From: Sphingobacteriia bacterium
GTDB lineage: Bacteria > Bacteroidota > Bacteroidia > NS11-12g > UBA9320
NCBI GenBank assembly: GCA_008080835.1
Contig: VMDK01000028.1
Span: 1 to 52,452 of the forward strand
Reading direction: 5' to 3'
DNA length: 52,452 nt
This document shows positions 1,323-52,452 of this stretch, piece after piece (position 1 is the stretch's first letter; each line of letters starts with the position of its first letter). The notes beneath the pieces are model-generated. The model was not told where the DNA came from and did not search any database. It saw only the letters and a list, made by a program, of their open reading frames with translations. The translations under genes were made by a program, and so were the position numbers.

Positions 1323-2213
1323 ATGAAGAGTTATAACACGAAGAACTGGTTCACCGTATTCACACTTTACCGACAGGACACCCTGAACCTGCTGTGGCCA
1401 ATTCTGTTACTTCTGGCTGTCTATACCCTAGGGGTTGACTATTGGCTGATGCAAAATCCTCAAGTTGAGAATTCTGTTATCCTCAAGAATATCGGCATCA
1501 TCCACAGTTTACTCGGGTTGGTCATATCCCTTTTGTTGGTTTTCCGAACAAATACGGCATATGACAGATGGTGGGAAGGACGCAAACACTGGGGAGCATT
1601 GGTCAACAATTGCAGGAATATGGCCTTGCGACTCAACGCTTTACTGAAACCTGAGAACAAAACGGACAGGGAGTTCTTTTCCAGCTTTATCGGTGTCTAC
1701 TGTAAAACCCTGGATCAGCATCTGAAGTCAGTGGCTTTAGGATTAGAGTTGGATGAAACAGAACACCCCGAGCTACGCTCATTGAAACCAATGAAGCACG
1801 GTCCCAACCAGATCGCAGCCAAAATTCATGAACGGATGTATGAGTTGGGTCGTGAAGGAGAGATCTCACAAGAAGAAATGTTGAGCCTGAGCGGTAACGT
1901 GAATGCGCTAACCGATATATGCGGGGCCTGTGAACGGATCCGAAACACACCAATCCCATTTAGTTATGCTGCATTCATCAAGAAGTTCATCATATTCTAT
2001 GTGATCAGCCTACCCTGGAGCTTAGCAGCAAATCTCGGATTCTGGAGTGTGTTCGTAGTGGTCTTCATAATGTATGCGTTCGGAAGTCTTGAAGTGATCG
2101 CGGAAGAAATAGAAGAACCATTTGGGGATGATCCGAACGATCTACCCACCGGCAAAATGGCTAAAAATATTGCTGTGAACGTCGAGGAGATCCTTCTGCA
2201 TGATTCAGAATAA
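1323..2213 (+). CDS. Bestrophin-like family (UPF0187) anion channel
   Basis: LLVFRTNTAYDRWWEGRKHWGALVNNCRN motif and C-terminal EEIEEPFGDDPNDLP, typical of bacterial bestrophins. Confidence 0.88.
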   Translation: MKSYNTKNWFTVFTLYRQDTLNLLWPILLLLAVYTLGVDYWLMQNPQVENSVILKNIGIIHSLLGLVISLLLVFRTNTAYDRWWEGRKHWGALVNNCRNMALRLNALLKPENKTDREFFSSFIGVYCKTLDQHLKSVALGLELDETEHPELRSLKPMKHGPNQIAAKIHERMYELGREGEISQEEMLSLSGNVNALTDICGACERIRNTPIPFSYAAFIKKFIIFYVISLPWSLAANLGFWSVFVVVFIMYAFGSLEVIAEEIEEPFGDDPNDLPTGKMAKNIAVNVEEILLHDSE

Positions 2214-4656
2214 ACCATTCAAATCGTTGAATATGTACCACTTAAACAAAATATTGCTGTTCGTTTTCTCTTTTTTAAGCCTGAACATATTTGCTCAGGA
2301 AGGCCTGACCTACCAGAAACCTCCACAAGAGATCCTTGAGCTTGCAGATGTAGAACTGGCTCCAACACCGTACATGGATGATCGGTCCGAGTTCATGGTC
2401 CTGGTGTACAGGGATGCATATAAGAGCATCGACGAGCTAAGTCAGAATGAACTACGTTTAGCCGGTCTGCGCATCAATCCAGATCGGAACATTGGCAGTC
2501 GGGTCACCTACTACCGCAAGTTGGAAGTGAAAAAGGCCAATTCAAAAACGGCGACTCAGGTGACCGGTTTACCGGAACAACCTCAGCTGAGTAATTTCCT
2601 GTGGTCCCACGACCAAAAGAAAATGGCATTTACTCATACAGGTAGTGAGGGCGTGGAGCTTTGGGTTTTGGATGTAAAGAATGCTAGTGCGAAAAAGATC
2701 TCGAATACCATCCTGAACGCGAATATGGGGCGACCCATGATCTGGTTCAAGGATGATCGCTCACTACTGGTCAGGGCTCTTCCTGAGGATAAGAAAGAAC
2801 TGACCATTAGGGATAATGTTGTTCCTACAGGACCGACCATTTCCGTGAGCGACGGCGCCAAAGCGCAGAACAGAACGTATCAGGACCTATTGAAGAATCC
2901 CGTTGATGAACAGAATTTTGAGATCCTTGCAACTTCAGAACTCGTTAAAATAGTTTTAGATGGTGTTGTGCAGAAGTGGGCAGAAGCCGCTATGTATGAT
3001 CGGATGACCTTTTCACCTGACGGGCACCTTATACTCATCTCTCGAGTTGAAAGACCATTTTCTTACATCGTCCCGTATTACAGATTTCCGGAGATCTCGG
3101 CCATTTACAAAGAAAGTGGAGAGTTGGTGGAAGTTGTGAATGAAGTGCCCCTGACTGAGGTTTTGCCAAAAGGCTTCATGGCTTCCAGAACCGGAAGAAG
3201 ATCCATTAATTGGAGAGCCGACAGACCTGCCACTATCTATTGGGCTGAAGCTCTTGACGGAGGGGATCCCGAGACGGAAGTGGAATATCGCGACGCTGTG
3301 TACCAATTGTCTGCTCCATTTACAGGAGACCCTCAGTTGCTTATAAAAACCAAGGACCGCTACCGGGGAGTCGCGTGGGGAAATGATGAACATGCCTTTG
3401 CTTACGACTATTGGTGGAATACGAGGAACACTAGGATATACGAATTCGATCCAAATGACAATTCACGCGAACCGAAGATCCTTTCCGATCGGAATTATCA
3501 AGACATCTACAGTGATCCGGGAGGGCCGATGTTCGTGGACAATGACTACGGAAGAAGTGTGGTCTACATAGAGAATGACAAGGTGTTCCTGGCTGGAGAT
3601 GGCCATACACCAGAAGGCCAATTCCCTTTTATCGACGAATTCGATCTCAACACACTGAAAACTGAACGGATCTATCAAAGCCCGTACAAGGATAAATTAG
3701 AGAACATACTTCGTCCGGTGAACATGGAGAAAAGGTGTTTTTTGGTTCGGCTTGAATCACCAAATGAGTTTCCAAACTATTACATCCGTGATCTGAAAAA
3801 AGGAAATGAGCTGACACAGATCACGTATAATGTCAATCCGTTCAAGGGCCTGGAAAATGTTCATAAGGAGTTGATCAAATACAAGCGCAATGATGGACTT
3901 GAATTGAGCGGTACTTTATATCTGCCTCCGGGGTATGACATGGAAAAGAAAGAGAAGTTACCTATGCTACTTTGGGCTTATCCACGGGAATACAAAGACA
4001 AAAGCAGTGCAGGTCAGACAGCCAGCAACCCCAATGCATTCACCTATCCGTACTACGGTTCATTCATTTATTGGGTGATGCGCGGTTATGCGGTCTTGGA
4101 TGATGCAGCTTTTCCTATTGTTGGTGAAGGAGATGCAGAACCCAACGATGATTTCAGGGAACAGCTTGTTGCCAACGGAAAAGCAGCCATAGATGCCTTA
4201 GACAGTTTGGGATATATCGACAGAAGTCGTGTTGGAGTAGGAGGACACAGCTATGGCGCCTTTATGGTGGCAAACCTACTTTCTCATTGTGACTATTTCG
4301 CTGCAGGAATTGCACGGTCAGGAGCATACAATCGTACCCTCACCCCATTCGGATTTCAAAGCGAGGAAAGGTCGTACTGGGACGCCCCAGAAGTTTATTA
4401 CACCATGTCGCCGTTCATGCATGCCGACAAAATGGACGAACCTCTCCTGTTGATCCATGGAGAAGCGGATAATAATTCGGGAACATATCCCATGCAAAGT
4501 GAGCGCTACTTCAATGCGCTTAAAGGTCTTGGATCCACAGCCCGCCTGGTAATATTACCAAAAGAGAGTCATGGCTACAGAGCCAAAGAATCGATCCTGC
4601 ACCTTCTTTGGGAACAGGATCAATGGCTGGAAAAATACGTGAAGAATAAAAAGTAG
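2200..4656 (+). CDS. S9 family peptidase (prolyl oligopeptidase/glutamyl endopeptidase-like), secreted
   Basis: Signal-peptide-like N-terminus ending FAQ; GGHSYGAFM nucleophile motif; LLIHGEADNNSGTYPMQSER; C-terminal ESHGYR. Confidence 0.9.
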   Translation: MIQNKPFKSLNMYHLNKILLFVFSFLSLNIFAQEGLTYQKPPQEILELADVELAPTPYMDDRSEFMVLVYRDAYKSIDELSQNELRLAGLRINPDRNIGSRVTYYRKLEVKKANSKTATQVTGLPEQPQLSNFLWSHDQKKMAFTHTGSEGVELWVLDVKNASAKKISNTILNANMGRPMIWFKDDRSLLVRALPEDKKELTIRDNVVPTGPTISVSDGAKAQNRTYQDLLKNPVDEQNFEILATSELVKIVLDGVVQKWAEAAMYDRMTFSPDGHLILISRVERPFSYIVPYYRFPEISAIYKESGELVEVVNEVPLTEVLPKGFMASRTGRRSINWRADRPATIYWAEALDGGDPETEVEYRDAVYQLSAPFTGDPQLLIKTKDRYRGVAWGNDEHAFAYDYWWNTRNTRIYEFDPNDNSREPKILSDRNYQDIYSDPGGPMFVDNDYGRSVVYIENDKVFLAGDGHTPEGQFPFIDEFDLNTLKTERIYQSPYKDKLENILRPVNMEKRCFLVRLESPNEFPNYYIRDLKKGNELTQITYNVNPFKGLENVHKELIKYKRNDGLELSGTLYLPPGYDMEKKEKLPMLLWAYPREYKDKSSAGQTASNPNAFTYPYYGSFIYWVMRGYAVLDDAAFPIVGEGDAEPNDDFREQLVANGKAAIDALDSLGYIDRSRVGVGGHSYGAFMVANLLSHCDYFAAGIARSGAYNRTLTPFGFQSEERSYWDAPEVYYTMSPFMHADKMDEPLLLIHGEADNNSGTYPMQSERYFNALKGLGSTARLVILPKESHGYRAKESILHLLWEQDQWLEKYVKNKK

Positions 4657-4666
4657 TCTGCTCGGA

Positions 4667-5107
4667 TCAACCTTTCTTCAGGTTGTCGAGATAGGCCATC
4701 GCCTCTTTCTTTCCCATTTTTCGAACAGCAGCCAATCTTGCGAGTTGGGCTTTGCGAGGTCGTGTTGCGCCTTTCTCCCAATTGTAAATGGTTAGACCGG
4801 AAACTCCGACCAGTTTACCATAATCGTTGGCAGAAAGTCCAAGACGTTGACGTTGAGACTTCAACCCTTTCGCGGTAAATCTCAATTTGGTCTCTTCAAG
4901 CTCTTTTACTTCAGGAGTGATATCACTGAAGATCTTGCTCTCAAGAAGTGCGACTTTTCTTTCGAGGCGAGTATTCTTGCGCTTGAGAGATGCAATGTCT
5001 CTGCGGTGCTGCGCTGAATTCTTCTTCAATGTCTCCATCTCCTTGCGGATCTCTTTCCGCGCAATTCGACTGATCTCTTCTTTTAATACGGTTGCTACGT
5101 TAGGCAT
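4667..5107 (-). CDS. Helix-turn-helix (XRE-like) DNA-binding protein with N-terminal coiled coil
   Basis: C-terminal LKSQRQRLGLSANDYGKLVGVSGLTIYNWEKGATRPRKAQLARLAAVR reads as an HTH_3/XRE fold; N-terminal charged heptads. Confidence 0.8.
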   Translation of the reverse strand: MPNVATVLKEEISRIARKEIRKEMETLKKNSAQHRRDIASLKRKNTRLERKVALLESKIFSDITPEVKELEETKLRFTAKGLKSQRQRLGLSANDYGKLVGVSGLTIYNWEKGATRPRKAQLARLAAVRKMGKKEAMAYLDNLKKG

Positions 5108-5272
5108 CGAATGTGTGTTAAAATGTACTAGGTTTCTATCTTTAAACGCTTGACGCGCTGTGAAAGTCGGTGCAAGTCTATATACTTAACATCATTATAA
5201 CAAGCGAACTAGTCAAATGTTATTTATAGAACTTTTGCATTTTTCAATTTTAATACCGGTCAACTTTGAACA

Positions 5273-5290
5273 GTGTGATATAAGTCACAC
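5273..5290. promoter_or_regulatory. Candidate CRP/FNR-family operator GTGTGA-TATAAG-TCACAC
   Basis: Perfect 6+6 bp inverted repeat containing TGTGA-N6-TCACA. Confidence 0.45.
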
Positions 5291-5617
5291 CTGATGTATG
5301 AGTAATATCTGTCGCTCAAACCTTCAGTGACAGGGAAATTTTCCTCAATCCGGGTCAAAGTCTGTCTGTTATTCGATTCATTATCAACATCTTGATTCAA
5401 ATTATAATTTAGGGTATCTAAATGTCACTGATATTTGGTACAAAACACGATGTATACAAACTACAGGAAGTGTGAACATCGTGACATGATTCTGAATATT
5501 CGATGAACAGTTCGATCACCAAAAAATTGACAATCGGATGGAGAAGTATGAGGTCAGGATATAGATTCCATCAGATCGACACACTCTAGGAGCGGAATGA
5601 TATTTTGTGGAAATCCC

Positions 5618-5625
5618 TACTTTTG
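5618..5625 (+). promoter_or_regulatory. Candidate -7 element (TACTTTTG) upstream of accA
   Basis: Matches Bacteroidetes TAnnTTTG consensus, 19 nt before the accA ATG. Confidence 0.4.
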
Positions 5626-5644
5626 ACGGCTCTAAAGTGGGAAC

Positions 5645-6607
5645 ATGATATACTTGGATTTTGAAAAACCGATAGAGGAATTGATGGAGCAACTCGACAA
5701 GGCTCGTGAGACGCACAAGAAGGGCAAAGTCGATATGAGTGATACCATCAGTCAGCTGGAGAAGAAGATAGAATCAACCAGACGGTCATTGTACAAGGAC
5801 CTGAGTGGTTGGCAAAAAGTTCAGGTCTCTCGTCATCCTGATCGACCATACACGAATGATTACATTAAAGCTCTGACTAAGAACTTCACAGAGCTTCATG
5901 GTGATCGCAATGTAGGTGATGATAAAGCGATCGTTGGCGGATTGGCAACCATCGATGGTCAACCGGTAATGATCCTGGGTCATCAGAAAGGACGTAATAC
6001 CAAGGACCGACAATATCGGAACTTCGGAATGCCGAATCCTGAGGGTTATCGAAAAGCTCTTCGACTGATGAAGCTGGCAGAGAAATTTGACATCCCAGTT
6101 ATCACCTTAATTGATACTCCTGGTGCATCTCCGGGGTTGGAAGCAGAGGAACGCGGACAAGGTGAAGCGATCGCTAAGAACCTATTGGAAATGTCGGTTC
6201 TCAAAGTACCTATCATTTGCATCGTGATCGGCGAAGGTGCATCCGGTGGAGCTTTGGGAATTGGCGTTGGTGATAGGATCGTTATGCTGGAAAATTCGTG
6301 GTACTCGGTCATCTCACCTGAAAACTGCTCTACCATCTTGTGGCGTAGCTGGGAACACAAAGAGCAAGCGGCAGAAGCTCTTAAACTCACAGCTGACAAC
6401 ATGCTGGAGAATGGATTGATCGACAAGATCATCAAAGAACCGGTTGGTGGTGCTCATTGTGATCCGGATACCATGTACAAAACCATGAAAACGGAGATCA
6501 AGCGTTTGCTTAAAGAACTGCTTCCTATTGAGAAAGATGAGCTTGTTGCTCAGCGCATCGACAAATTCTCAAATATGGGAGTTTACACCGAAGAGGCTGC
6601 GGAGTAG
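5645..6607 (+). CDS. accA: Acetyl-CoA carboxylase carboxyltransferase subunit alpha
   Basis: Typical AccA sequence: [78 protein letters not shown]. Confidence 0.96.
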
Positions 6608-37880: not shown

Positions 37881-39950
37881 ATGATTTGCCGTCGTTACAC
37901 GATTAAAGCGCTGCTAGTGCTCATCACAGTTGCATTGTTCAGTGCTTCCTGTATGCGCAGTTCCAAGAGCTGGGACACGCAGTTGGCTGCACCGCTATTG
38001 AACACGTCATTGCAGATCGATGATGTGATCGCGGATTCCTTTCTCATCAAAGCATCTGATTCCAGCTACATATTTTCGTACCGATACCCCTTTGCCATTG
38101 ATAGCTTTGGAGACCACCTGCAAGTTCCAGATACGGTCAATCAAGTTACGGTGTCCCTTGATAAGCTGATCTTGTCTGATAAGGCCCTCACAGACACGAT
38201 CACGTTGCGTGAGATGTCACCTCAGATCGGACTGCTCGATGGAAAGATGGTCGATCTGCCCGCACAGAGTTTTAGCGATGCCGGTGGACAGGACATTGAT
38301 ATCTCTAAAGATTTTTTCAAACGAGCAAAATTCATCGATGGGTATCTGGACCTGGTGATATACAACGATTTGCCGGTTGAAGTAGAGACAATGTCTTTCG
38401 TCCTCAAGAACAAACAAGATGGGCTGGTGATCGCGTCTGACGTATTCACCAATATCCTTCCGGGAGATAGTGTCAAACAGAGTTACAGCCTTGCAGGCAA
38501 AGAGGTTTTGGGAATCCTTGTAGGCGAGATACAGGAAGTCAAAACCTATCCTAGTAACGGAGAAGTTCTGATCGATGCCGACAAGGGTGTTCGAATAGGT
38601 ATGAATGTCCGAGACCTTGAACCGCTATACGCAACGGCCGTTTTCCCAGCGCAGGATCTGGTGACAGATACACAAGAGGTTGGTTATAATTTCGGGAAGT
38701 CTGCGATTACCGAGATGATGGTCTATAAAGGAGAAGTGACCATGACCGTTCACAGCACAATAGAGGAATCGATCAAGCTGGATTACAGGATTCCCTTCTC
38801 TGGCAAGAATGGAGATTTCAGTGCACCATTCACGCAGCTTTTTACCGTACCACCGGCAAAGCCCGGTGAGACTCAGATCGTGGAGCGGAAGATCCCTCTT
38901 GATGATTATGTCATCCAGTATAAAGGCAAAGATCCTCTGAGCGCCCCTTTCTTCAATACGATCTACAGTGAATTAGTTGCCAGTATCGTTTACTCCGGAA
39001 TTGAACGGAGCATATCTCTACAAGATAGCGTATTCATTGAGTTTGGTTTTGTAAATATCAAACCCGCCTATGCGTATGGCGACTTCGGATATGATGAAAC
39101 AACGGTCTTAGAGAGTGCCGACGTGAAGGCCATGAAGCAGCTTGAAGGTGAGATAAATTTTGAAGACATGTGGATGAGTGTGCTGTTGGAGAATAATTTC
39201 GGCATTGAGGCAAATGTGAAAGTGAATCGCTTGAGTTCGATCAATTCAAAAACAGGAACACGGGTGGATCTGAGTAATCCTGACTTAATAGATCAGACGA
39301 TCTTTCTCGCTAAGGCCATTAATTATCCTCCTCTCGAGCCATATAAGAGGAATTTTGTCCTGAACCAATCCAACTCCAATGTGCAATCTTTCCTGGAGAA
39401 CTTACCTGACAAAGTAGAAGCAGATATATACCTTGAGAGTCGGCCATATGGGAGTAATCACTATACGAATTTCGTGTTCAGAGAGAGCTTTCTCAGAGCG
39501 ACTTTGAATCTCAATTTGCCGCTTCAGTTCTCGCTTGGGAACATGCAACTCACTCAAAAGCAGAAGTTTAACCTCACGGATGACGAGAATGTAGATCGAA
39601 TAAAAGAAGGAAGTTTTCAACTCAGGGTAGAGAACGACTTTCCGATCGGTGCTCAAATGAAGCTGGAATTCCTGGATGATGAGGAAAATATCCTGTTGGA
39701 GCTTTTCGCTGATGCGGGTGAGATCCTAGCGGCTGACGTCCCTTCAGGTAAGGAACGTACCGAAAAACCAACCATCAATTATCTCTCTGCACAGCTTGGC
39801 TCACCGGAGATCGAACTGTTGCGTTCTGCGACCAAAGTGCGCACCATAGCTACTTTTAATACGCCCGGAACAAGGCGCTATAAGATGTTCAACGACTATA
39901 GTCTGGATGTTAAACTCAGTGCCGATTTCGTGTATGAACAGAATTTCTAA
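37881..39950 (+). CDS. Hypothetical lipoprotein
   Basis: N-terminal signal with lipobox-like SASC; about 690 aa with no recognised domains. Confidence 0.65.
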   Translation: MICRRYTIKALLVLITVALFSASCMRSSKSWDTQLAAPLLNTSLQIDDVIADSFLIKASDSSYIFSYRYPFAIDSFGDHLQVPDTVNQVTVSLDKLILSDKALTDTITLREMSPQIGLLDGKMVDLPAQSFSDAGGQDIDISKDFFKRAKFIDGYLDLVIYNDLPVEVETMSFVLKNKQDGLVIASDVFTNILPGDSVKQSYSLAGKEVLGILVGEIQEVKTYPSNGEVLIDADKGVRIGMNVRDLEPLYATAVFPAQDLVTDTQEVGYNFGKSAITEMMVYKGEVTMTVHSTIEESIKLDYRIPFSGKNGDFSAPFTQLFTVPPAKPGETQIVERKIPLDDYVIQYKGKDPLSAPFFNTIYSELVASIVYSGIERSISLQDSVFIEFGFVNIKPAYAYGDFGYDETTVLESADVKAMKQLEGEINFEDMWMSVLLENNFGIEANVKVNRLSSINSKTGTRVDLSNPDLIDQTIFLAKAINYPPLEPYKRNFVLNQSNSNVQSFLENLPDKVEADIYLESRPYGSNHYTNFVFRESFLRATLNLNLPLQFSLGNMQLTQKQKFNLTDDENVDRIKEGSFQLRVENDFPIGAQMKLEFLDDEENILLELFADAGEILAADVPSGKERTEKPTINYLSAQLGSPEIELLRSATKVRTIATFNTPGTRRYKMFNDYSLDVKLSADFVYEQNF

Positions 39951-41124
39951 GCTCCTTTTTGCGCTGTTTCTGCTTCAATCATCGATCACCAAGGCACAAT
40001 TAGGCTTACAGGATCGCTTGCGAACGGGTGTTTCTTATGATCTAAACCTCTTCGCACAATCCAATCAATTTGATAAAGACCTCTTCTTCAAATCGTTCTG
40101 GGACGAGGACCTCAAGAATCGACAGCTCGAAAGAACTCCCGGCCAAACGAAGCTAGGCTGGGGAACAGGTCATACAGCGGCATACCAATGGGGTGCACTG
40201 GGCGAGAATGCTTTCAAAAAGATCTACTACGTGCGGTTGTCCTATCACGACCTGCACTCAATCGATCTGGACACAGATCTGACCAAGGTTGCCCTGTTGG
40301 GCAATAGTCATACTCGTGGACAAACTATAGACGTGAACAGTTCAGGAACTGATGCGATCGAATATTCAAGTTTGGGGTTTGGTTTTGAGCGGATATCAGA
40401 TCAGAATAAGCAGATCCGTTACCAGTTGGGGGCGAACATCTTTGCAGGACATTCATTGAATGCCCAAAACACTTCATCTGGCACAATTACAACCGATTCC
40501 ATGTTGGAACATGTGACATTGGATCTGGATTACATTTCACAATCTAAAATGCGAAGTTTGAGTTCCGGAATGGGTCTTGGAATAGATCTTGGTATCTCAA
40601 AGCACACCGGTGACCGCTATTTCAAGATCTCGATCAGAGACCTTGGATTTATCAACTGGAGTAAGACCACCGAACTGGAAAATGCCAGTCGCCCTCAGAG
40701 ATTTGAAGGAGTCTTTGTTCCGGATATTCAGATCTCAGAGTTCAATTGGCTGGATTCTGTAAACAAAGAACTGGTTCTCGAAGAAACACGCTCCGTTCTG
40801 CGATTGACACCATTCAACGTTACGTTGGATGCTGAGTTCCGCTTAAGTACCCAATCAGCTTTAGGATTTAACGCACGATATTTCCATCTCATTGGTTTCA
40901 TCCCTGAGATCAGTGCACAGTATCTCAAGATCTGGAAATCCAACCGAGTATCATTCGGACTGAAGTATGGTGGTTTTGGCGTATTGAGAAGCCATTGTTC
41001 ACTGCTTTTGCAACGACATAACATCCTCAACTTCAAGCTCGACCTGGAAAGTCCGGAGAGCCTGATAATGAACGATTTGCCAATGGGATTGGCGGTTCGT
41101 ACGGGTGTGATCTGGAATCTGTGA
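39934..41124 (+). CDS. DUF5723-like outer-membrane/secreted family protein
   Basis: Start reassigned to MNRISKLLFALFLLQSSITKAQ; beta-rich barrel-like sequence; 17-bp overlap with upstream gene. Confidence 0.6.
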   Translation: MNRISKLLFALFLLQSSITKAQLGLQDRLRTGVSYDLNLFAQSNQFDKDLFFKSFWDEDLKNRQLERTPGQTKLGWGTGHTAAYQWGALGENAFKKIYYVRLSYHDLHSIDLDTDLTKVALLGNSHTRGQTIDVNSSGTDAIEYSSLGFGFERISDQNKQIRYQLGANIFAGHSLNAQNTSSGTITTDSMLEHVTLDLDYISQSKMRSLSSGMGLGIDLGISKHTGDRYFKISIRDLGFINWSKTTELENASRPQRFEGVFVPDIQISEFNWLDSVNKELVLEETRSVLRLTPFNVTLDAEFRLSTQSALGFNARYFHLIGFIPEISAQYLKIWKSNRVSFGLKYGGFGVLRSHCSLLLQRHNILNFKLDLESPESLIMNDLPMGLAVRTGVIWNL

Positions 41125-42660: not shown

Positions 42661-45600
42661 ATGACTACTATGCCAACCAATCACCTCAATTTGAGGCGGT
42701 ATGGATTGGTGGCGCTGTTCCTTTGTTTGAGCATTTTTGCCCATGCTCAAAATGTCGGGATCAACGCTACCGGAGTGGATCCACATCCCTCTGCCATGCT
42801 CGACGTGAACTCCATCGACAAAGGAGTTCTGGTTCCTCGCCTCACCAAAGCCCAAAAACTTGGTATTCCAGCCCCTGCGACAGGCCTTTTGGTCTATCAG
42901 CTGGACGACACGATCGGATTCTGGTTCTATACCGGGACGAATTGGGAACCTATTTTCCGTACTGTAGAAGCCGGAACCGGGCTGACAGGAGGACAGATCT
43001 ACAGCTATGGAAGGATTGACCTCGCTACAACGGGCGTTGTGCCGGGCACATATGGTAGCTCAGATAGTATACCACGATTCACTGTAAACCAACACGGGCA
43101 GTTGGTTTTCGCCGGTAATGTACCGGTAAATCACCCTTTTGAAAAAGACTCTGTGATCGGAAACGAGATCACTGACACCTTGAATGCCAGAGGAATGCTG
43201 GAAATGTACGGTACAGGTACAACTGCTGATCCGTATCGTCTGGGAATTCGAGCGGGAATCAATATCAATGATATCTGGATCTGGAACGGGAGCAGTTGGA
43301 CGTTCGCTCCCCTTCCGGTCGAGAAGGACAGTGTAGTTGGAAACGAGATCGCCGACACGATCGACACCTACGGATTGATCGGTCGCACGGGTTCCGGCAC
43401 TTCTGCCGACCCATTCATGATCACGGGAATGCCGGGCAATAACCCCGGAGATATCTGGCAATGGAATGGAAACAAGTGGGTGTCCGCCCGATTAGTTTCT
43501 CCTTTGGAACAGGACAGCGTCATTGGTAACGAGATCGCTGATACCATCAATTCACGAGGTATCATTAATCGCACGGGTTCGGGAACGAATGTCGATCCGT
43601 ACAGGATCGAAGTGAACCCGGGTAATACTGTTGGCCAGGTATGGCAATGGGACGGGAACAAATGGGTTCCGCAGACATTGGTGTACCCTCTGGAAAAAGA
43701 CTCCGTCATTGGTAACGAGATCGCTGATACATCGAACGCTCGAGGTATCCTCAACCGATCAGGCAGCGGGACTACCGTAGACCCATACACCGTTGGGATC
43801 AACCCAGGAAAAAATGCTGGGGAAGTCTGGACCTGGGACGGCTCCAAGTGGGTGCCTATGGTTATTGTGCATCCTCTCGAGCAAGACTCTGTGATTGGTA
43901 ATGAAATAGCTGATACTGTTAACGCGCGAGGAATACTCTCAAAGATTGGTTCAGGAACTGCCGCCGATCCTTATATGATCGGTATCAATGCAGGAAATAA
44001 TGTGGGTGAAGTTTGGACCTGGGATGGAACGAACTGGGTACCGACGCCGATCACTCATCCGATCGAACAAGACAGTGTGATCGGTAACGAGATCGCTGAT
44101 ACAACTCTTGCCCGAGGGATTCTCTTGAAAAGTGGAACCGGTACTGCCACTGACCCTTATTTGGTAGGAATCAATCCGGGATCCAATCAAGGAGATGTAT
44201 GGACCTGGGACGGTTCCAAATGGGTACCAATGCCAATAACTCATCCTCTTGAAAAAGACAGCATCATCGGAAATGAAGTAACCGATACACTCAATGCACG
44301 CGGTGTACTTGAAAAATATGGCACAGGCACAGATGCCGACCCATATATGCTTGGTATCAGTGCGGGTAATAATACCGGAGATATCTGGAGATGGAATGGA
44401 TCTACATGGATCGCGGTTCCATTGCCGGTAGAAGTCGATGCTATAATCGGAAATGAAATCTACGACACGATCACAAACGGGTTCCTTGACCTTCAGGGTG
44501 CAGGAACCAATGCTGATCCCAAGCGTGTGGGAATGAAGCCGGGGTCGTTCAATGGCGCTTACTTGCGCTGGAATGGCACGACCTGGTACAGCGATTCGAC
44601 TTACCAGAATACGCTGGATATGGCTTATGACGAAGGAGGTCCGGGTGCCGGTCGCAATATCATTGCGGACTCAGGTCCGGTATTAGTTGAAGGAACTGAT
44701 GGGATCATCGTTCAGGGAACACACGCAAGTGGTGCTTCGATCGGAAGTCCGGGAATGGGCTCAAGAATGATCTACAATCCACGGAAGTCGGCCTTTAGAG
44801 CAGGACGCGCAGGAGGCACTCAATGGGACGTTGCCAATGTAGGTGATTACTCATTTGCAGGAGGCCACAGTACAACAGCCTCAGGGAATTACAGTACCGC
44901 ATTCGGATATGGATCTGTTGCGGATGATATTTACACTTTCGCCGCCGGAGACAGCTCGGCTGCGACCAACCGAAGAGCTATAGCGATCGGTGATCGCACT
45001 TGGGCGAATGGATTATCGTCTGTTTCGATCGGAAAAGAAGCGCTTTCAGAAGGAGAGAATTCAATAAGTATTGGACACCGCACGCGCAGTGAGGGTCCAT
45101 TCAGTGTCTCTATCGGAGAAGAAAGCCACACTCAAGGATTCCACTCATATGCATTTGGATATCAAGACACAGCACAGGGAGATTATAGTGTTGCGATGGG
45201 TTATGACTCCTATGCAGAAGGGGACAGTTCGATTGCGATCGGGATACACACATATACCACAAACCCTTATTCGGTGGCTATAGGTAACCATGTTTACGCC
45301 ATTGCAGATAAGTCGGTAGCTCTCGGGAGTTATGTGTCTTCGAACAACAAGAACGGTTCGTTCATTTTCGGTGATGGAAGTACGACCAATATCCTTCAGA
45401 GTTCAACATTGAACCAAATGACCATGCGTTTCGACGGTGGTTACTATCTCTATACCAATTCAGCCGCTACATTAGGTGTACGCCTGGTGAATGGTGCAAC
45501 GGCCTGGACCACGCTGTCTGACAGAAATACTAAGGAAAACTTTGAAGCTGTTGACGGTGAGTGGGTTATCTCGCAATTGAGACATGTACCGGTTTCAACC

Positions 45601-45894
45601 TGGAACTATATTGAAGGTGATGCAAGCGTTAGGAACATGGGGCCAATGGCTCAGGATTTCTATCATGCATTCCATCTGGGTGGAAGCGATAGTCTGGGGA
45701 TCACGACCTTGAACTTCGATGGTGTGAACCTTGCGGCTATTCAAGCTTTGATCAAAAGGACAGACGACCTGAGTGATACTCAAGCAGAGTTGATCAAATC
45801 TCAGGAAAAGATAAAACAACAGGAAGCTGAGATCAGTGAGCTCCGCGATGAACTAGATGCATTGCGAGAGCGTATCGAGCGTCTGGAGGAATAG
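42661..45894 (+). CDS. Secreted tail-fibre-like protein: eight ~62-aa repeats, YadA-head-like repeats, peptidase S74 intramolecular chaperone domain, C-terminal coiled coil
   Basis: Start reassigned to MTTMPTNHLNLRRYG..FAHAQ signal peptide; repeats DSVIGNEIADT..GSGT..DPY..G..WTWDGSKWVP; YSVAMGYDSYAEGDSSIAIG repeats; SDRNTKENFEAVDGEWVISQLRHVPVSTWNY..MGPMAQDFYHAF. Confidence 0.9.
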   Translation: MTTMPTNHLNLRRYGLVALFLCLSIFAHAQNVGINATGVDPHPSAMLDVNSIDKGVLVPRLTKAQKLGIPAPATGLLVYQLDDTIGFWFYTGTNWEPIFRTVEAGTGLTGGQIYSYGRIDLATTGVVPGTYGSSDSIPRFTVNQHGQLVFAGNVPVNHPFEKDSVIGNEITDTLNARGMLEMYGTGTTADPYRLGIRAGININDIWIWNGSSWTFAPLPVEKDSVVGNEIADTIDTYGLIGRTGSGTSADPFMITGMPGNNPGDIWQWNGNKWVSARLVSPLEQDSVIGNEIADTINSRGIINRTGSGTNVDPYRIEVNPGNTVGQVWQWDGNKWVPQTLVYPLEKDSVIGNEIADTSNARGILNRSGSGTTVDPYTVGINPGKNAGEVWTWDGSKWVPMVIVHPLEQDSVIGNEIADTVNARGILSKIGSGTAADPYMIGINAGNNVGEVWTWDGTNWVPTPITHPIEQDSVIGNEIADTTLARGILLKSGTGTATDPYLVGINPGSNQGDVWTWDGSKWVPMPITHPLEKDSIIGNEVTDTLNARGVLEKYGTGTDADPYMLGISAGNNTGDIWRWNGSTWIAVPLPVEVDAIIGNEIYDTITNGFLDLQGAGTNADPKRVGMKPGSFNGAYLRWNGTTWYSDSTYQNTLDMAYDEGGPGAGRNIIADSGPVLVEGTDGIIVQGTHASGASIGSPGMGSRMIYNPRKSAFRAGRAGGTQWDVANVGDYSFAGGHSTTASGNYSTAFGYGSVADDIYTFAAGDSSAATNRRAIAIGDRTWANGLSSVSIGKEALSEGENSISIGHRTRSEGPFSVSIGEESHTQGFHSYAFGYQDTAQGDYSVAMGYDSYAEGDSSIAIGIHTYTTNPYSVAIGNHVYAIADKSVALGSYVSSNNKNGSFIFGDGSTTNILQSSTLNQMTMRFDGGYYLYTNSAATLGVRLVNGATAWTTLSDRNTKENFEAVDGEWVISQLRHVPVSTWNYIEGDASVRNMGPMAQDFYHAFHLGGSDSLGITTLNFDGVNLAAIQALIKRTDDLSDTQAELIKSQEKIKQQEAEISELRDELDALRERIERLEE
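43138..44607 (+). repeat. Tandem coding repeat, 8 copies of 60-62 aa (180-186 bp)
   Basis: Copies start at 43138, 43318, 43504, 43690, 43876, 44062, 44248 and 44428 (last copy degenerate). Confidence 0.92.
44848..45390 (+). repeat. YadA-head/Hep_Hag-like ~14-aa repeats
   Basis: SFAGGHSTTASGNYSTAFGYGS..SIAIGDRTWANGLSSVSIGKEALSEGENSISIGHRTRSEG.. periodic SxAxG motif. Confidence 0.8.
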
Positions 45895-45897
45895 AGA

Positions 45898-48207
45898 ATG
45901 CTGAAACGGGTTTCCATATCGTTGCTCATTGCACTGAGCAGCTCGGGCGTCTTCGCTCAGGGCTGGGTGAACAACGGCGCCAATGTGGTGCTCACGGATT
46001 CCGTACATGTGGTTGTGACCACGGCAAATGGACACTACCTCAGCAAGAACAGCGGTCTGATCCGTTCCAAACGTGAAAGCTATTTCCACATCCGTGGTAA
46101 CTGGATCAACAATGGTGGAAACGAAGCTATTGCAAGTAATAACGGAACTGTCATCCTGGATGGAGCAATACAACAGATCCTAGGTTCTAGTTCCAGCTCA
46201 TTCAATAATCTTTTACTCACCGGTACAGGTGACAAATACCTTGGCATTGAGACACTCGTGGGGGGTGGACAGCTCGGCTTCAAATCCGGTCAATTGGATC
46301 TCACCAACAAGCGACTCTACCTGAATACAAACACGCTGATCGTCAACAATGAAAAGAACGACGCCATTCAGCGTGCTAACGGTATCATAGTCGGTGAGAC
46401 GAACCCAATTGTAGGGTATAGTTTCGTGCAATGGAATTTCCGTGATCAACCGTTTGGTAATCAGTACGAGATCCCATTCGGAAGCATAGACGATATCTAC
46501 ATACCATTCCTGTTCAACATAGATCAGGATGGGGTATCTAGTTTGGACAGTGGTCATTTGAAAGTAGCCATGTATCCGACCAACCCTCTGGTGGCGTTGA
46601 ACAACAGACCGTTACCGGCAGGTGTTACGAATCTGGACAATGAATATGGGATCGAGAATGACATCAAGAGTCTGGACCGTTTCTATGTGGTTCGCTCGGG
46701 TGGATTTGGGTTCCAGCCTCAATTGAGTTTGATCTTCCCATACATCGATCGCGAGTGGGACCAACTTGCAGGATCACTCAACGATATCGTGGAAGACGAT
46801 CTGGTAGCCGTTCGATATAACAGTGGGAATAACCAATGGAGCTATGATGGTTCGGGTAATGCCGATGCCGGTAACAACAATGTGAATTCTTCTGCAGGGA
46901 GCTCGTTTGCGGGCAATTGGGTCCTGTATAATATTTCTCCTTGCCCTGTCGCTTCGCTTGAATTTGACGAAGTATGCTTTGGCGAGCAAATGGAATTCAG
47001 GAACACATCTACCATTAATAGAGGCTCGATCACAGAAGTTGACTGGGATCTTGGTGGAGTAGCATACTCCGGCCAGGATACGGTGCAGCATTTGTTCCCA
47101 ACAGATGGCACTCAAAATGTTCGACTCATAGTTACATCCGATCGCGGATGCAAGGATACCGTGATCACAACGATTGAAGTTCATCCACTACCGATAATAG
47201 ACTTCGGTTACACGGATACCTGTCTTGGAATGCCAACGATCTTCACCAGTAGAAGTACCACGAGAACAGGTACGCCAATGCTCCATCAGTGGAAATCGCC
47301 GGGTATGACGCCCGGAAGCGGGTCGCAGTTCGCGCATGTATTCCCGGCAATAGGGATGTTTACAATGACCCACATCAGTACGAACTCATGGGGTTGTGTG
47401 GACAGTGCAAGCAAAGACTTTAATGTACGTGAGACGCCACCTGTAGAGTTCTATACGCGAGAGATATGTGAAGGAGAGATCGTGGATTTCGTCGACGAAA
47501 CGGGAGGAGCTTCTGCATTGCGCAGCTGGACCTGGAAGGTTGGAGACGAAGTGATATCATACAGTGATAGTACCAGTCGAAGATTCAGTTTCGCGGGAAC
47601 GTACCCGATCACCTTGATCGTTGAGAACGAGTATGGTTGCATCGACTCTTTCGTTCAACCACAGTTGGTGAAACCTAAAGCGATCGCCGATTTTACGTTC
47701 TGGCCTGACAGGGTGCTGATCAGTGACCCAATAGTTCGATTCTTCGACAACAGTACCAATACCAATATTTACGATTGGGACTTCGGGGATGGTGTAGGTA
47801 GATCCAACCTGATGAATCCTGAGTATACGTATGCCGATACGGGAGCTTATTCAATATTGCTGATCGCCGATAATGACGGACAATGTCCGGATACCGTTCG
47901 CAAGACCATAGTGATCGGTCCGGATCTTAAGATATTCATACCCAACGCCTTTACGCCGCAAGGGCTGGATAATCTGAATGAAACATTTAAGCCGTCCGGG
48001 GTTCTTCAGGGCATGCGCGACTTCCACATGCAGATCTATAACCGCTGGGGTGAAATGCTCTTCGAGAGTTTCAGTATCGACAATCCGTGGGATGGAACCT
48101 ATCGTGGTGTGGAAGTTGAAATGGGCAACTATCTCTACTTGATACGTGTTGTGGATCACCAGCGCAACGAGCACTTCTTCAAAGGGATGGTCATGCTCCT
48201 TCGATAA
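45898..48207 (+). CDS. PKD-domain protein with T9SS type B (gliding-motility/CHU_C-like) sorting domain
   Basis: Signal peptide ..SSSGVFAQ; PKD motif YDWDFGDGVGRSNLMNPEYTYADTGAYSILLIADN; C-terminus IFIPNAFTPQGLDNLNETFKP..MQIYNRWGEMLFES..PWDGTYRGVEVEMGNYLYLIRV. Confidence 0.93.
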   Translation: MLKRVSISLLIALSSSGVFAQGWVNNGANVVLTDSVHVVVTTANGHYLSKNSGLIRSKRESYFHIRGNWINNGGNEAIASNNGTVILDGAIQQILGSSSSSFNNLLLTGTGDKYLGIETLVGGGQLGFKSGQLDLTNKRLYLNTNTLIVNNEKNDAIQRANGIIVGETNPIVGYSFVQWNFRDQPFGNQYEIPFGSIDDIYIPFLFNIDQDGVSSLDSGHLKVAMYPTNPLVALNNRPLPAGVTNLDNEYGIENDIKSLDRFYVVRSGGFGFQPQLSLIFPYIDREWDQLAGSLNDIVEDDLVAVRYNSGNNQWSYDGSGNADAGNNNVNSSAGSSFAGNWVLYNISPCPVASLEFDEVCFGEQMEFRNTSTINRGSITEVDWDLGGVAYSGQDTVQHLFPTDGTQNVRLIVTSDRGCKDTVITTIEVHPLPIIDFGYTDTCLGMPTIFTSRSTTRTGTPMLHQWKSPGMTPGSGSQFAHVFPAIGMFTMTHISTNSWGCVDSASKDFNVRETPPVEFYTREICEGEIVDFVDETGGASALRSWTWKVGDEVISYSDSTSRRFSFAGTYPITLIVENEYGCIDSFVQPQLVKPKAIADFTFWPDRVLISDPIVRFFDNSTNTNIYDWDFGDGVGRSNLMNPEYTYADTGAYSILLIADNDGQCPDTVRKTIVIGPDLKIFIPNAFTPQGLDNLNETFKPSGVLQGMRDFHMQIYNRWGEMLFESFSIDNPWDGTYRGVEVEMGNYLYLIRVVDHQRNEHFFKGMVMLLR

Positions 48208-48269
48208 GGGAGCTTCCGCTTAAATTCTTCTTCAATTTTCGTTATCCTTGAAAGGAAAAAGGATATTCG

Positions 48270-50270
48270 TTGATGTCGTCTCCAAAACGAAAGAAGGGTA
48301 AGAAGCCAATAAAGAAATCGCGTCCTCCACAGACGCAGAAAGTATCTCAGAAACAATCCTCCGGATTTTCACTTCAGAAATATCCCGGAATAGTGATTGC
48401 GATTCTTTCCTTTCTGTTGTACGTCAACACCCTTAACCATCAATTTGCCTTTGATGACGCCATTGTCATAACCGGGAACAGTTTGACTCAGAAGGGTACA
48501 TCGGGTATTCCGGATCTGGTAACAAAGGACTTCTTTGTCGGGATATACGGAGAACATGGAATGGAGCTTACTGGTGGAAGGTATCGTCCCCTTAGCTTAG
48601 TGATGTTCGCCATCGAAATGGAGCTTTTCGGAGAGAAGAAAATCTCGAAATCCGGCAAACCGGTGTTGAGCGCAGATCGCGAACAACTTTACAGTTATAA
48701 CCCCTTCATTGGTCACTTGGTCAACTTGATATTCTACGCACTCAGCGTCTATTTACTGTTTGTGCTTTTAGGCAAATGGTTTCCCAAGCAACCCATGGTC
48801 GCATGGATCGGGGCACTCCTATTCGCTCTCCATCCCATACACACGGAAGTCGTTGCAAACATCAAAAGTCGCGACGAGATCATGGCTCTTTTCTTCTTGA
48901 TCTGTACCTTTTTGCAGATTGATAAAATCGTTCATAATCAGTCAGTTAAGAGTAGCACTCTTGCGGGAGTGTTCTTCTTTCTTGCTGCGATGAGTAAGGA
49001 AAATGCATTCACCTTTATTGTGTTTGTTCCGCTTTTGATCGCAGTGATCTACAAAAAGAGTTGGAAAGACAGTTTCAAAGGTTCTTTGCCGATCTGGATA
49101 GGTGGAATTATCTATTTGGTTTTGAGGACAAGCATGGTTGGGCTCCCTAGCACTGTAGAAACGAATCCATCTATTCTTGAAAACCCATTTGTGGATACGG
49201 ACCCTCTGACCAAGTTCGGAACCATATTCGTAGTTCTTCTTAGGTATGTGATCTTGCTCTTCGTTCCACACACAATGAGCTCAGATTACAGTTACCCGCA
49301 GATCGAGTATGTTGGCTTTGGTGATATAGAGGCATTAGCCGGTTTGGCGATCTATTTAGGAATGGGTGCTTTGTTGATCTATGGAGTGCTCAAGAAGCAG
49401 ACGTATACGTTGTTTCTGGCAGCCTATCTATTGCCGTTGAGTGTAGCCAGCAACATCGTGTTCAATATTGGAGCACCGATGGGAGAGCGCTTTGTGTATA
49501 TGTCGAGCTTTGGATTCGCCACTGGCATTGCTTGGATCATTGCGACCAAGCTGAAAGTTCCAACGTGGAAAGCACTCGAGAGCAATAAAGGGTTGCTTGT
49601 TGCATTGATCGTCTGTGGGGTATTTTACAGCTACAAGACAGTCGGACGCAACGTCGACTGGTACGACAATGAGACCTTATTCACGGCTGATATCGAGAAT
49701 AGTCCAAACAGTGCCAAGATGAATTATTATTTCGCCAACACATTTCTCAAGAAACAAATGGCGGATGAAAAACACACCGATGCAAAGGAATGGTTGGCCC
49801 TTGCAGAAAAGCATTTCACCAAGGCAGTGGAGCTTTATCCCAAATTCGGCCTGGGATGGTATAATTTGGGTTTGGTGAAAGTGCAAAAAGGAGAGGGACA
49901 AGAGGCGCTTCCGTATGCGAAGAGGGCCCTGGAAATTGAACCAGATAATGCAAAAGCAATGGCTCTGTTGGGTCAGATCTATGGTCGTTTCCTCATGCAG
50001 CCGAAGAACGGTATCGCACCTTTGCGCACAGCCATAGAAAAGTTTGGGAATCGAGACCCGGGTGTGGTGCAAAATTTAGCGATCTGCTATGCCATGACCC
50101 AGCAAAATGACAGTGCCGCATACTACTTTGAGTTGGCTTTGAAGAATGACCCGAACAATGTGAAAGTGCTTCAAAATCTGGGAGGACTTATGTTGCAAGC
50201 GGGTCGACAGGAAAAGGCACAAGAATACTTCAGTAGAGCTCAGGCGCTGAGCGGAAATCAAGGACAATGA
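48270..50270 (+). CDS. TMTC-like GT-C membrane protein with C-terminal TPRs (copy 1)
   Basis: FAFDDAIVITGN (GT-C DD motif), GGRYRPLSLVMFAIE, HPIHTEVVANIKSRDEIMALFF; multi-TM; TPR tail. Confidence 0.8.
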   Translation: MMSSPKRKKGKKPIKKSRPPQTQKVSQKQSSGFSLQKYPGIVIAILSFLLYVNTLNHQFAFDDAIVITGNSLTQKGTSGIPDLVTKDFFVGIYGEHGMELTGGRYRPLSLVMFAIEMELFGEKKISKSGKPVLSADREQLYSYNPFIGHLVNLIFYALSVYLLFVLLGKWFPKQPMVAWIGALLFALHPIHTEVVANIKSRDEIMALFFLICTFLQIDKIVHNQSVKSSTLAGVFFFLAAMSKENAFTFIVFVPLLIAVIYKKSWKDSFKGSLPIWIGGIIYLVLRTSMVGLPSTVETNPSILENPFVDTDPLTKFGTIFVVLLRYVILLFVPHTMSSDYSYPQIEYVGFGDIEALAGLAIYLGMGALLIYGVLKKQTYTLFLAAYLLPLSVASNIVFNIGAPMGERFVYMSSFGFATGIAWIIATKLKVPTWKALESNKGLLVALIVCGVFYSYKTVGRNVDWYDNETLFTADIENSPNSAKMNYYFANTFLKKQMADEKHTDAKEWLALAEKHFTKAVELYPKFGLGWYNLGLVKVQKGEGQEALPYAKRALEIEPDNAKAMALLGQIYGRFLMQPKNGIAPLRTAIEKFGNRDPGVVQNLAICYAMTQQNDSAAYYFELALKNDPNNVKVLQNLGGLMLQAGRQEKAQEYFSRAQALSGNQGQ

Positions 50271-52240
50271 GCAAGAAGACGAACAAAACGAAGAAGCGAA
50301 ACAAGGGGAGCCATAACCCAAGGCCAAAAGTCGTTTCATTCAACTGGAAACCGGCCCTTCTGGTGAGTCTGATAGCCTTTATCCTCTACGGAAATACCCT
50401 ACAGCACGAATTTGCATTCGACGATGCCATAGTGATCACGGAGAACAAATTCACCCAAAAGGGATTTGCGGGGATCAGTGAACTGGCGACGAGTGATTTC
50501 TTCAAGGGCACCTTCGACGAAAAAGGAGATGAGCTGTCCGGCGGGCGATACCGGCCTTTGTCACTTGTGATGTTCGCTGCAGAGGCTCAACTTTTCGGCG
50601 AGCCTCAAAAAGAGGCCAATGGCCAGATCCGGAGAAATGATGACGGCGACATACTGTATGACTACCCGGCACAGTTCGGACATTGGGTGAATGTGTTGTT
50701 CTATGCACTCTGTTGCTACTTGTTGTATTATCTGCTCTTCCTGTGGTTTGGTCAGAGAAAAGAATTAGTAGCAGTCCCATTCGTAGCGGCTTTATTGTTT
50801 GCGGTTCACCCCGTGCACTCGGAAGTAGTGGCAAACATTAAGAGTAGGGATGAGATCCTGTCATTGTTTTTCCTACTTGGAACATTGATCTTTTGGCACA
50901 GATGGCTGAAAGATCAGTCGAATAAAAAAACCTTATGGTTTGGACTAGGTGCATTCCTTTTGAGCTTATTGGCAAAGGAGACCCCGTTCACATACATTGC
51001 CATCTTCCCGTTGATCGACTGGGTCGTATACAAAACCCCACAAAAGGATTTGATCAAGCGATCCTGGCCTCTGTGGCTGGTGGCCATTGGCTATCTGGTG
51101 TTGCGCACATCAATGGTCGGCCTGCCTAAGCCCGCAGTAAATACGACCGGAATACTGGATAACCCTTTTGCCACTTCGGACATGGCCGAGAAGCTGGCGA
51201 CCATCAGTCTGATCTGCTGGCGCTATGTGATGTTGTTGGTGGCACCCATCACCATGCGCTGTGACTATTCATTTGAGCATGTCCCGTTTGCTACTTTCGG
51301 TCATCCGGAGGCCCTTATGGGGGTCTTGCTGTACGGAAGTATGATCGTTGCGGCAATCGTATTGTTGAAGAAGCGGAGCATCTATTCGCTCGTCATTGTG
51401 ATGTTCCTGTTTCCACTCTCGGTGGTGACCAACCTGTTCTTCAATATCGGAGCTACGATGGGAGAGCGGTTCTTGTTCGTGCCTTCACTGGCATTTGCGT
51501 TGTTGGTGGCGCTACTGCTTGTTAAATACATGAAATTGAACAGCTTGAAAGTTCAGGCGAATGCTGGTTGGGCGGTTTTGATACTATATGGAATGTTCTT
51601 CTCCTACAAGACCTTTGCCCGCAACCCGGATTGGAAGAACAACGATACCTTGTTCACCAAGGATGTGGAGACCACACCAAAGAGTGCCAAGATGCAGAAT
51701 TATCAGGCACGTATTCTATTCGAGGATTGGCGGGAAGGAAACCGTCAGGCCGAGGATAGGCCTCTGCTCGAACAGGCAAAGTATCACTACGACCGGAGCG
51801 TGCAGATCTACAAAGACTATTTGATGTCGTACTACGACTTGGGCATGGTGAACCTTTACCTGGGTAACAAGGACGAATCCCTGGCAGCCTTGCACAACGC
51901 GTTGAAGTTGAACTACCAGCACGGACCGAGTCATGAGTTACTAGGGCAGGTGCATTACCGCATGACCAAGGATTACAATAAAGCGGCCTTCCACCTTCGC
52001 TATGCCGTGGAGAGGCTCGATCGCAAGCGCGCGACAGCGGGGCGGGACCGGGGAGTGGACTACGCCACTGCAGGCAAGGGCGACAGCGCTGTTATGTACT
52101 TACAGCAGTCGTTGGACATGGATCCGAACAACCTGATGACCTTGAAGAACACCTCAGTGATCTTGCGCCAGTTGGGTCGACCTCGGGAAGCAGACGAGTA
52201 TGCCCGTCGTGCTGCGGCATTGGAGGCGAAACAGCCTTGA
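50267..52240 (+). CDS. TMTC-like GT-C membrane protein with C-terminal TPRs (copy 2)
   Basis: Paralog of upstream gene: FAFDDAIVITENKFTQKGFAGISELATSDFF, GGRYRPLSLVMFAAE, HPVHSEVVANIKSRDEILSLFF; ATGA overlap with copy 1. Confidence 0.8.
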   Translation: MSKKTNKTKKRNKGSHNPRPKVVSFNWKPALLVSLIAFILYGNTLQHEFAFDDAIVITENKFTQKGFAGISELATSDFFKGTFDEKGDELSGGRYRPLSLVMFAAEAQLFGEPQKEANGQIRRNDDGDILYDYPAQFGHWVNVLFYALCCYLLYYLLFLWFGQRKELVAVPFVAALLFAVHPVHSEVVANIKSRDEILSLFFLLGTLIFWHRWLKDQSNKKTLWFGLGAFLLSLLAKETPFTYIAIFPLIDWVVYKTPQKDLIKRSWPLWLVAIGYLVLRTSMVGLPKPAVNTTGILDNPFATSDMAEKLATISLICWRYVMLLVAPITMRCDYSFEHVPFATFGHPEALMGVLLYGSMIVAAIVLLKKRSIYSLVIVMFLFPLSVVTNLFFNIGATMGERFLFVPSLAFALLVALLLVKYMKLNSLKVQANAGWAVLILYGMFFSYKTFARNPDWKNNDTLFTKDVETTPKSAKMQNYQARILFEDWREGNRQAEDRPLLEQAKYHYDRSVQIYKDYLMSYYDLGMVNLYLGNKDESLAALHNALKLNYQHGPSHELLGQVHYRMTKDYNKAAFHLRYAVERLDRKRATAGRDRGVDYATAGKGDSAVMYLQQSLDMDPNNLMTLKNTSVILRQLGRPREADEYARRAAALEAKQP

Positions 52241-52352: not shown

Positions 52353-52426
52353 GGTCTGGTAGTTCAGTTGGTTAGAATACCTGCCTGTCACGCAGGGGGC
52401 CGCGGGTTCGAGTCCCGTCCAGACCG
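52353..52426 (+). tRNA. tRNA-Asp (anticodon GTC)
   Basis: GGTCTGG/CCAGACC acceptor stem; CCTGC-CTGTCAC-GCAGG anticodon arm; T-loop TTCGAGT; discriminator G. Confidence 0.95.
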
Positions 52427-52452
52427 CTTTGATTATCAATCACTTAAGCCTC

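Follow-up and report, generated by a model that had tools for sequence, protein, structure and literature searches.

A probable T9SS-linked trimeric-fibre cassette and a lineage-specific TMTC-like GT-C pair beside it in a Sphingobacteriia bacterium

We analysed a 52,452-nucleotide stretch of DNA from a Sphingobacteriia bacterium (contig VMDK01000028.1), here called the window, and its last four protein-coding genes are probably best explained as two separate units, a surface-fibre cassette (42661-48207) and a lineage-specific tandem pair of TMTC-like GT-C genes (48273-52240). The first unit is most likely a trimeric-fibre cassette linked to the type IX secretion system (T9SS), and the GT-C pair lies alongside it. 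A preliminary description of this DNA had read the four genes as one locus in which the fibre and its neighbour are glycosylated by dedicated enzymes. Its surface-fibre-like protein with a T9SS type B PKD protein and its GT-C fold were both recovered, but the four-gene dedicated glycosylation locus was not. The present result corrects a plausible but unsupported story of a glycosylation operon that carries its own substrate.

The fibre gene and its PKD partner

All four open reading frames lie on the + strand (Table 1), the first being given from 42574 or 42661 and the third from 48270 with its ATG at 48273. When the frames and their spacing were determined again, the co-directional packing described previously was found unchanged, with gaps of 3 bp and 62 bp (65 bp counted from ATG 48273) and a 4-bp overlap, and the earlier domain calls (an S74 fibre, a PKD protein with a T9SS type B domain and two TPR-tailed membrane proteins) agreed with the Pfam/NCBIfam matches. 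No terminator was detectable by scanning in the approximately 62-bp gap between the PKD gene and the first TMTC-like gene, and promoter and terminator signals at this junction were at or below chance. These same-strand, short-gap genes could be carried on a single transcript in this species. Because the contig ends 25 bp past the tRNA gene, genes downstream of the TMTC-like pair are out of view. We also considered a horizontal origin by composition, but the GC content is not decisive, as it stays at 0.45-0.51 throughout the region and falls no more than slightly around 48-49.5 kb.

Table 1 Features of the fibre and GT-C region of the window.
Feature	Position	Strand	Basis
S74 fibre protein, 1077 aa	42661..45894	+	Domain profiles; orthologues 52-59% identical in seven same-family genomes
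Eight D-S/A-(V/I)-(V/I)-G-N-E repeat cores, span	43147..44457	+	Repeat analysis, spacing 60-62 aa
SDRNTK, predicted self-cleavage dyad (Ser and Lys five residues apart), start of S74 domain	45517..45534	+	Conserved SDxNxK
Fibre partner, PKD protein, 769 aa	45898..48207	+	Domain profiles; orthologues 40-43% identical
T9SS type B sorting domain (CHU_C) of PKD protein	47938-48201	+	Profile matches
TMTC-like GT-C protein 1, membrane GT-C domain and TPR tail	48273..50270	+	Motifs, relatives, AlphaFold
TMTC-like GT-C protein 2	50267..52240	+	42% identical to protein 1; motifs, AlphaFold, Foldseek
tRNA-Asp(gtc)	52353..52427	+	Contig end 25 bp further on

The fibre protein matched YadA_head (1.1e-23) and Peptidase_S74 (1.7e-6; 28.6 bits against a cut-off of 22) in Pfam/NCBIfam, and it is composed of a Sec signal peptide, a conserved N-terminal module, eight repeats of about 62 aa, YadA-head repeats, the Peptidase_S74 chaperone domain and a C-terminal coiled coil. 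The repeat number was missing from the preliminary description; it is exactly eight in the window fibre and again eight in all six full-length orthologues examined, with a spacing of 60-67 aa over the orthologues and the window fibre. The Ser-Lys spacing of the SDxNxK motif is constant in all fibre orthologues, and we take this pair, from its role in S74/MYRF ICA domains, to be the probable self-cleavage dyad. Following this model, the Sec-exported fibre would most likely trimerise under its C-terminal S74 chaperone, which would then cut itself off through the Ser-Lys dyad and leave a fibre with the conserved N-terminal module and the fixed set of eight repeats. Like phage S74 (endosialidase-type) chaperoned trimeric fibres and YadA-type adhesins, the window fibre has Peptidase_S74 and YadA_head above cut-off, and it shares the conserved Ser-Lys spacing. 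Unlike them, it is chromosomal, has a Sec signal and is accompanied by a T9SS-cargo partner, and its Pfam matches include no membrane anchor of the YadA type. No T9SS sorting domain was found in the window fibre by profile search, a point against the cassette model, in which the fibre would have to cross the outer membrane.

The partner gene encodes a protein with a signal peptide, an N-terminal domain of its own, several PKD domains and a C-terminal T9SS type B sorting domain (Pfam/NCBIfam: PKD_4 2.4e-35, CHU_C 4.6e-15, TIGR04131 type B 6.6e-12), the TIGR04131 match covering residues 681-767 with 45.4 bits against a cut-off of 35. With the hydrophobic N-terminus MLKRVSISLLIALSSSGVFAQ and the TIGR04131 C-terminal domain, it has both marks of T9SS type B cargo and shares the TIGR04131/CHU_C signal with SprB and PG1035, among others. 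Cargo of type B is known to be anchored by a PorP-like protein, and sprB and sprF are gene neighbours (PMC9143113). Unlike that arrangement, the PKD gene is partnered by an S74 fibre, and no PorP/SprF-like gene was recognised among the neighbours in the window and seven relatives, as judged without a PorP-like profile; the anchor could lie elsewhere. The window's own genome devotes much to type IX secretion: over 2.39 Mb, its sorting-domain matches number about 85 for type A and 25 for type B.

Conservation shows the fibre gene and the PKD gene to be a genuine unit. The PKD orthologue stands directly 3' of the fibre gene in 7/7 same-family genomes with the fibre, the fibre itself being in pieces in two of them (G005 and G020). 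Upstream, glyA adjoins the fibre gene in every case where the contig reaches it, and the relatives also have the genes beyond it in common. The same pair occurs again in a second family (G049, G051 and G053), and paralogous pairs are present in G001, G014 and G017. What follows the PKD gene varies. The next gene codes for a nucleotidyltransferase in G005 and G007 and for a CDP-alcohol phosphatidyltransferase in G009; in G001, G017 and G020, another S74 gene stands there, accompanied by a small type A T9SS protein. No TMTC gene was found downstream of the pair in any of the seven same-family genomes. The gene order proposed earlier was thus conserved for its fibre-PKD part (7/7 relatives) and not for the PKD/TMTC junction (0/7). 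As a separate observation, two genes at 37881-41124 of the window, the first lipoprotein-like and the next coding for a DUF5723 protein, have reading frames that overlap by 44 bp; the two stay together in the relatives, again upstream of glyA.

S74 genes and T9SS cargo in related genomes

When all loci read were counted, the gene after an S74 gene was a co-directional T9SS-cargo gene in 28/34 cases compared with 19/267 background genes, a set that includes loci picked for having the pair. Using the subset obtained by the S74-family search, the count was 13/22 against a background of 7%, with a Fisher p of 8e-9 that is indicative only, as the genomes are related, top-scoring S74 matches were favoured and the counting was partly by eye; four of the 13 positives are identified by our home-made type B profile only (E about 1e-7 to 1e-9). 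Several S74 proteins in the related genomes themselves have a C-terminal T9SS type A signal. We regard this recurrent order, S74 gene and then T9SS cargo, as good support for a fibre module linked to T9SS. It may also be, as we put forward tentatively and at somewhat less than even chance, that S74 trimeric fibres are a recurrent class of T9SS-tied surface appendages in Bacteroidota, each with its own T9SS-exported partner, and that fibres lacking a sorting signal arrive at the surface together with it, presumably in contact. If the pairing is functional, self-cleaving fibre chaperones of the phage type would build surface appendages via the type IX system, with the partners carrying the export signal. 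None of the papers that we searched names both the chaperone of endosialidase and T9SS.

Individual loci illustrate the range of arrangements. At the S74 loci L205-L224 and L152, the next gene is often type A or type B cargo in the same direction, and at L217 (G040:C3:203000-222900) three tandem pairs of S74 and PKD/type B genes succeed one another on the same strand, their sorting domains being almost identical.

The TMTC-like GT-C pair

Both membrane proteins have strong TPRs, and their TMTC_DUF1736 (PF08409) scores of 17.2 and 20.5 bits are below the curated 27-bit cut-off, so the proteins are filed as TMTC-like and not as TMTC. The family signal becomes clear only with relatives, TMTC_DUF1736 being matched in 46/66 (E<=0.01) and PMT_2 in 44/66 (best 6e-10). 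The motifs DD, YRP and KE(T/Q)xxT are listed for human TMTCs, and full-length prokaryotic homologues have already been noted (PMC7801869). Protein 1 has DD at 48453-48458, YRP at 48582-48590, HPIHTEVVANIKSRDE at 48831-48878 and KENxxT from 48996, and protein 2 has DD at 50420-50425, HPVHSEVVANIKSRDE at 50807-50854 and KETxxT from 50975; the corresponding strings of the pair are FAFDD, GGRYRP and KENAFT/KETPFT. Thus the resemblance to TMTCs with a DD motif, as claimed for this DNA earlier, was upheld by DD, YRP and KE[T/N]xxT in the window pair, and the HP...NIKSRDE-type motifs quoted at that time could be placed at the two longer segments. Over 66 TMTC-like relatives, DD, R-P and K-E are invariant, and the motif cores are invariant or nearly so.

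The GT-C fold that had been expected from structure prediction was obtained. AlphaFold gave a mean pLDDT of 92.8 and a pTM of 0.90 for full protein 1; as the fold search with this full protein returned mostly TPR proteins, the GT-C part of protein 2 was folded alone (mean pLDDT 94.3, pTM 0.94). With that part, Foldseek matched AglB, Pmt4, ArnT, DPY19 and Pmt1/Pmt2 at probability 1.00, and the 17 best PDB matches were all GT-C enzymes or GT-C-like subunits at the same probability. Compared with the solved AglB, Pmt4, ArnT and DPY19 (E 4.6e-5 to 4e-3), the identity is only 11-13% and the TM-score 0.38-0.50 of the query, and there is no PDB sequence-profile match: a profile of the full TMTC alignment hit mostly TPR proteins in the PDB, and one of the GT-C part alone gave no match. 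The label "TMTC-like GT-C protein" is well supported by these predicted structures, and it stands because the TMTC motifs are present.

Eukaryotic TMTCs O-glycosylate cadherin domains. The window pair shares with the eukaryotic TMTC1-4 O-mannosyltransferases (GT-C/PMT clan) the DD of the first loop, YRP, KE(T/N)xxT, a membrane half followed by TPRs, and the predicted GT-C fold. Unlike TMTC1-4, the window proteins score below the TMTC_DUF1736 cut-off and belong to a Bacteroidota NIKxRDE subgroup without a cadherin substrate. The two proteins could not be taken as sisters, as they form with L039 and L041 a small clade that is supported as a whole only, and a phage origin of protein 2 was rejected, as 50,697 phage records contained no match to it.

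Further TMTC-like genes occur in the window's own genome on contigs C1, C6, C70, C98 and C53, those on C1 and C6 being of the same NIKxRDE group and away from any copy of the window fibre. The neighbourhoods of close TMTC genes were read at 80 loci (79 usable), and 12 more came from a scan of 297 phylum genomes, giving 91 examined. No S74 or PKD/CHU_C gene adjoined a TMTC gene at the 79 usable loci or at the 12 phylum-scan loci, and type B signals were found within 10 kb at nine close-TMTC loci and were adjacent at none. The commonest informative neighbour was a GT2 glycosyltransferase gene, directly 3' of TMTC in 10/79 loci and at several of them overlapping by a few bases. This GT2 is possibly a polyprenyl-phosphate-sugar synthase, in keeping with a polyprenyl-phosphate-sugar donor for the TMTC-like enzymes. 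A GT2 that is 64-85% identical across loci adjoins TMTC-like genes at L045, L048, L057, L063, L066, L075, L077, L083, L085, L095 and L112. The nearest relatives of the window pair (L039 and L041) stand beside a cytidine-deaminase-like gene, and full-length fibre is absent from the genomes that hold them. At L153 (G018:C17:1-16000), a second, independent tandem TMTC-like pair was seen, with members from different clades (2188-4329 and 4351-6282) and no fibre gene nearby.

Relation of the pair to the fibre

The dedicated glycosylation locus proposed earlier would have the TMTC-like pair O-glycosylate the adjacent fibre repeats, the PKD domains or both, recruited beside its substrate in this lineage. 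Short-gap adjacency in this one genome, the GT-C fold and the TMTC motifs are in its favour, and so are the sequons of the fibre, in which 19 D-S/T-(A/I/L/V/M/T) sites were counted against 4.4 expected by shuffling. However, this excess is inflated partly by eight copies of one repeat, within which D-S varies to D-G/D-A while GNE is kept, and 14-19 sequons are still present in orthologues whose locus lacks TMTC; most of the genomes concerned are devoid of a close TMTC altogether. The link itself was seen in 0/7 relatives with fibre and PKD and in 0/91 TMTC loci, and the other genes of the NIKxRDE group in this genome, on C1 and C6, also lie apart from fibre copies. As the PKD/TMTC junction is missing in relatives, a functional link between the fibre/PKD genes and the TMTC-like pair is unsupported, and we consider dedicated glycosylation improbable. 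If the fibre is glycosylated, a general system of the phylum is a sufficient explanation. Another proposal would make the TMTC-like proteins the undiscovered enzyme of phylum-wide Bacteroidota O-glycosylation, responsible for placing the initial mannose on D-S/T-x; a review calls the Bacteroidota OTase and core machinery undiscovered and suggests a search for homologues of O-mannosylation enzymes (PMC12871550), and the many D-S/T-x sequons of the fibre would suit such a role. Matches to the GT-C profile are patchy, however, and occur in just 53/297 Bacteroidota genomes, and a close TMTC is missing from most of the relatives that carry the fibre, so that this subfamily cannot be the universal enzyme and the idea is very improbable.

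Activity on a lipid-linked or envelope glycan, as for ArnT, and not on protein would leave the pair with no tie to the fibre. This is still unlikely, though less so than the two proposals above: ArnT is among the structural matches, the neighbourhoods tie no protein substrate to the family and the distribution is patchy, whereas the TPR tail suggests protein interaction, the closest fold matches include the protein glycosyltransferases AglB and Pmt4, and the closest named family acts on protein. Under the two-unit explanation that we prefer, the second unit would be made up of TMTC-like GT-C glycosyltransferases whose TPR tails are periplasmic. Most likely they take a hexose from a polyprenyl-phosphate donor and attach it to an acceptor in the periplasm, which may be something other than the fibre.
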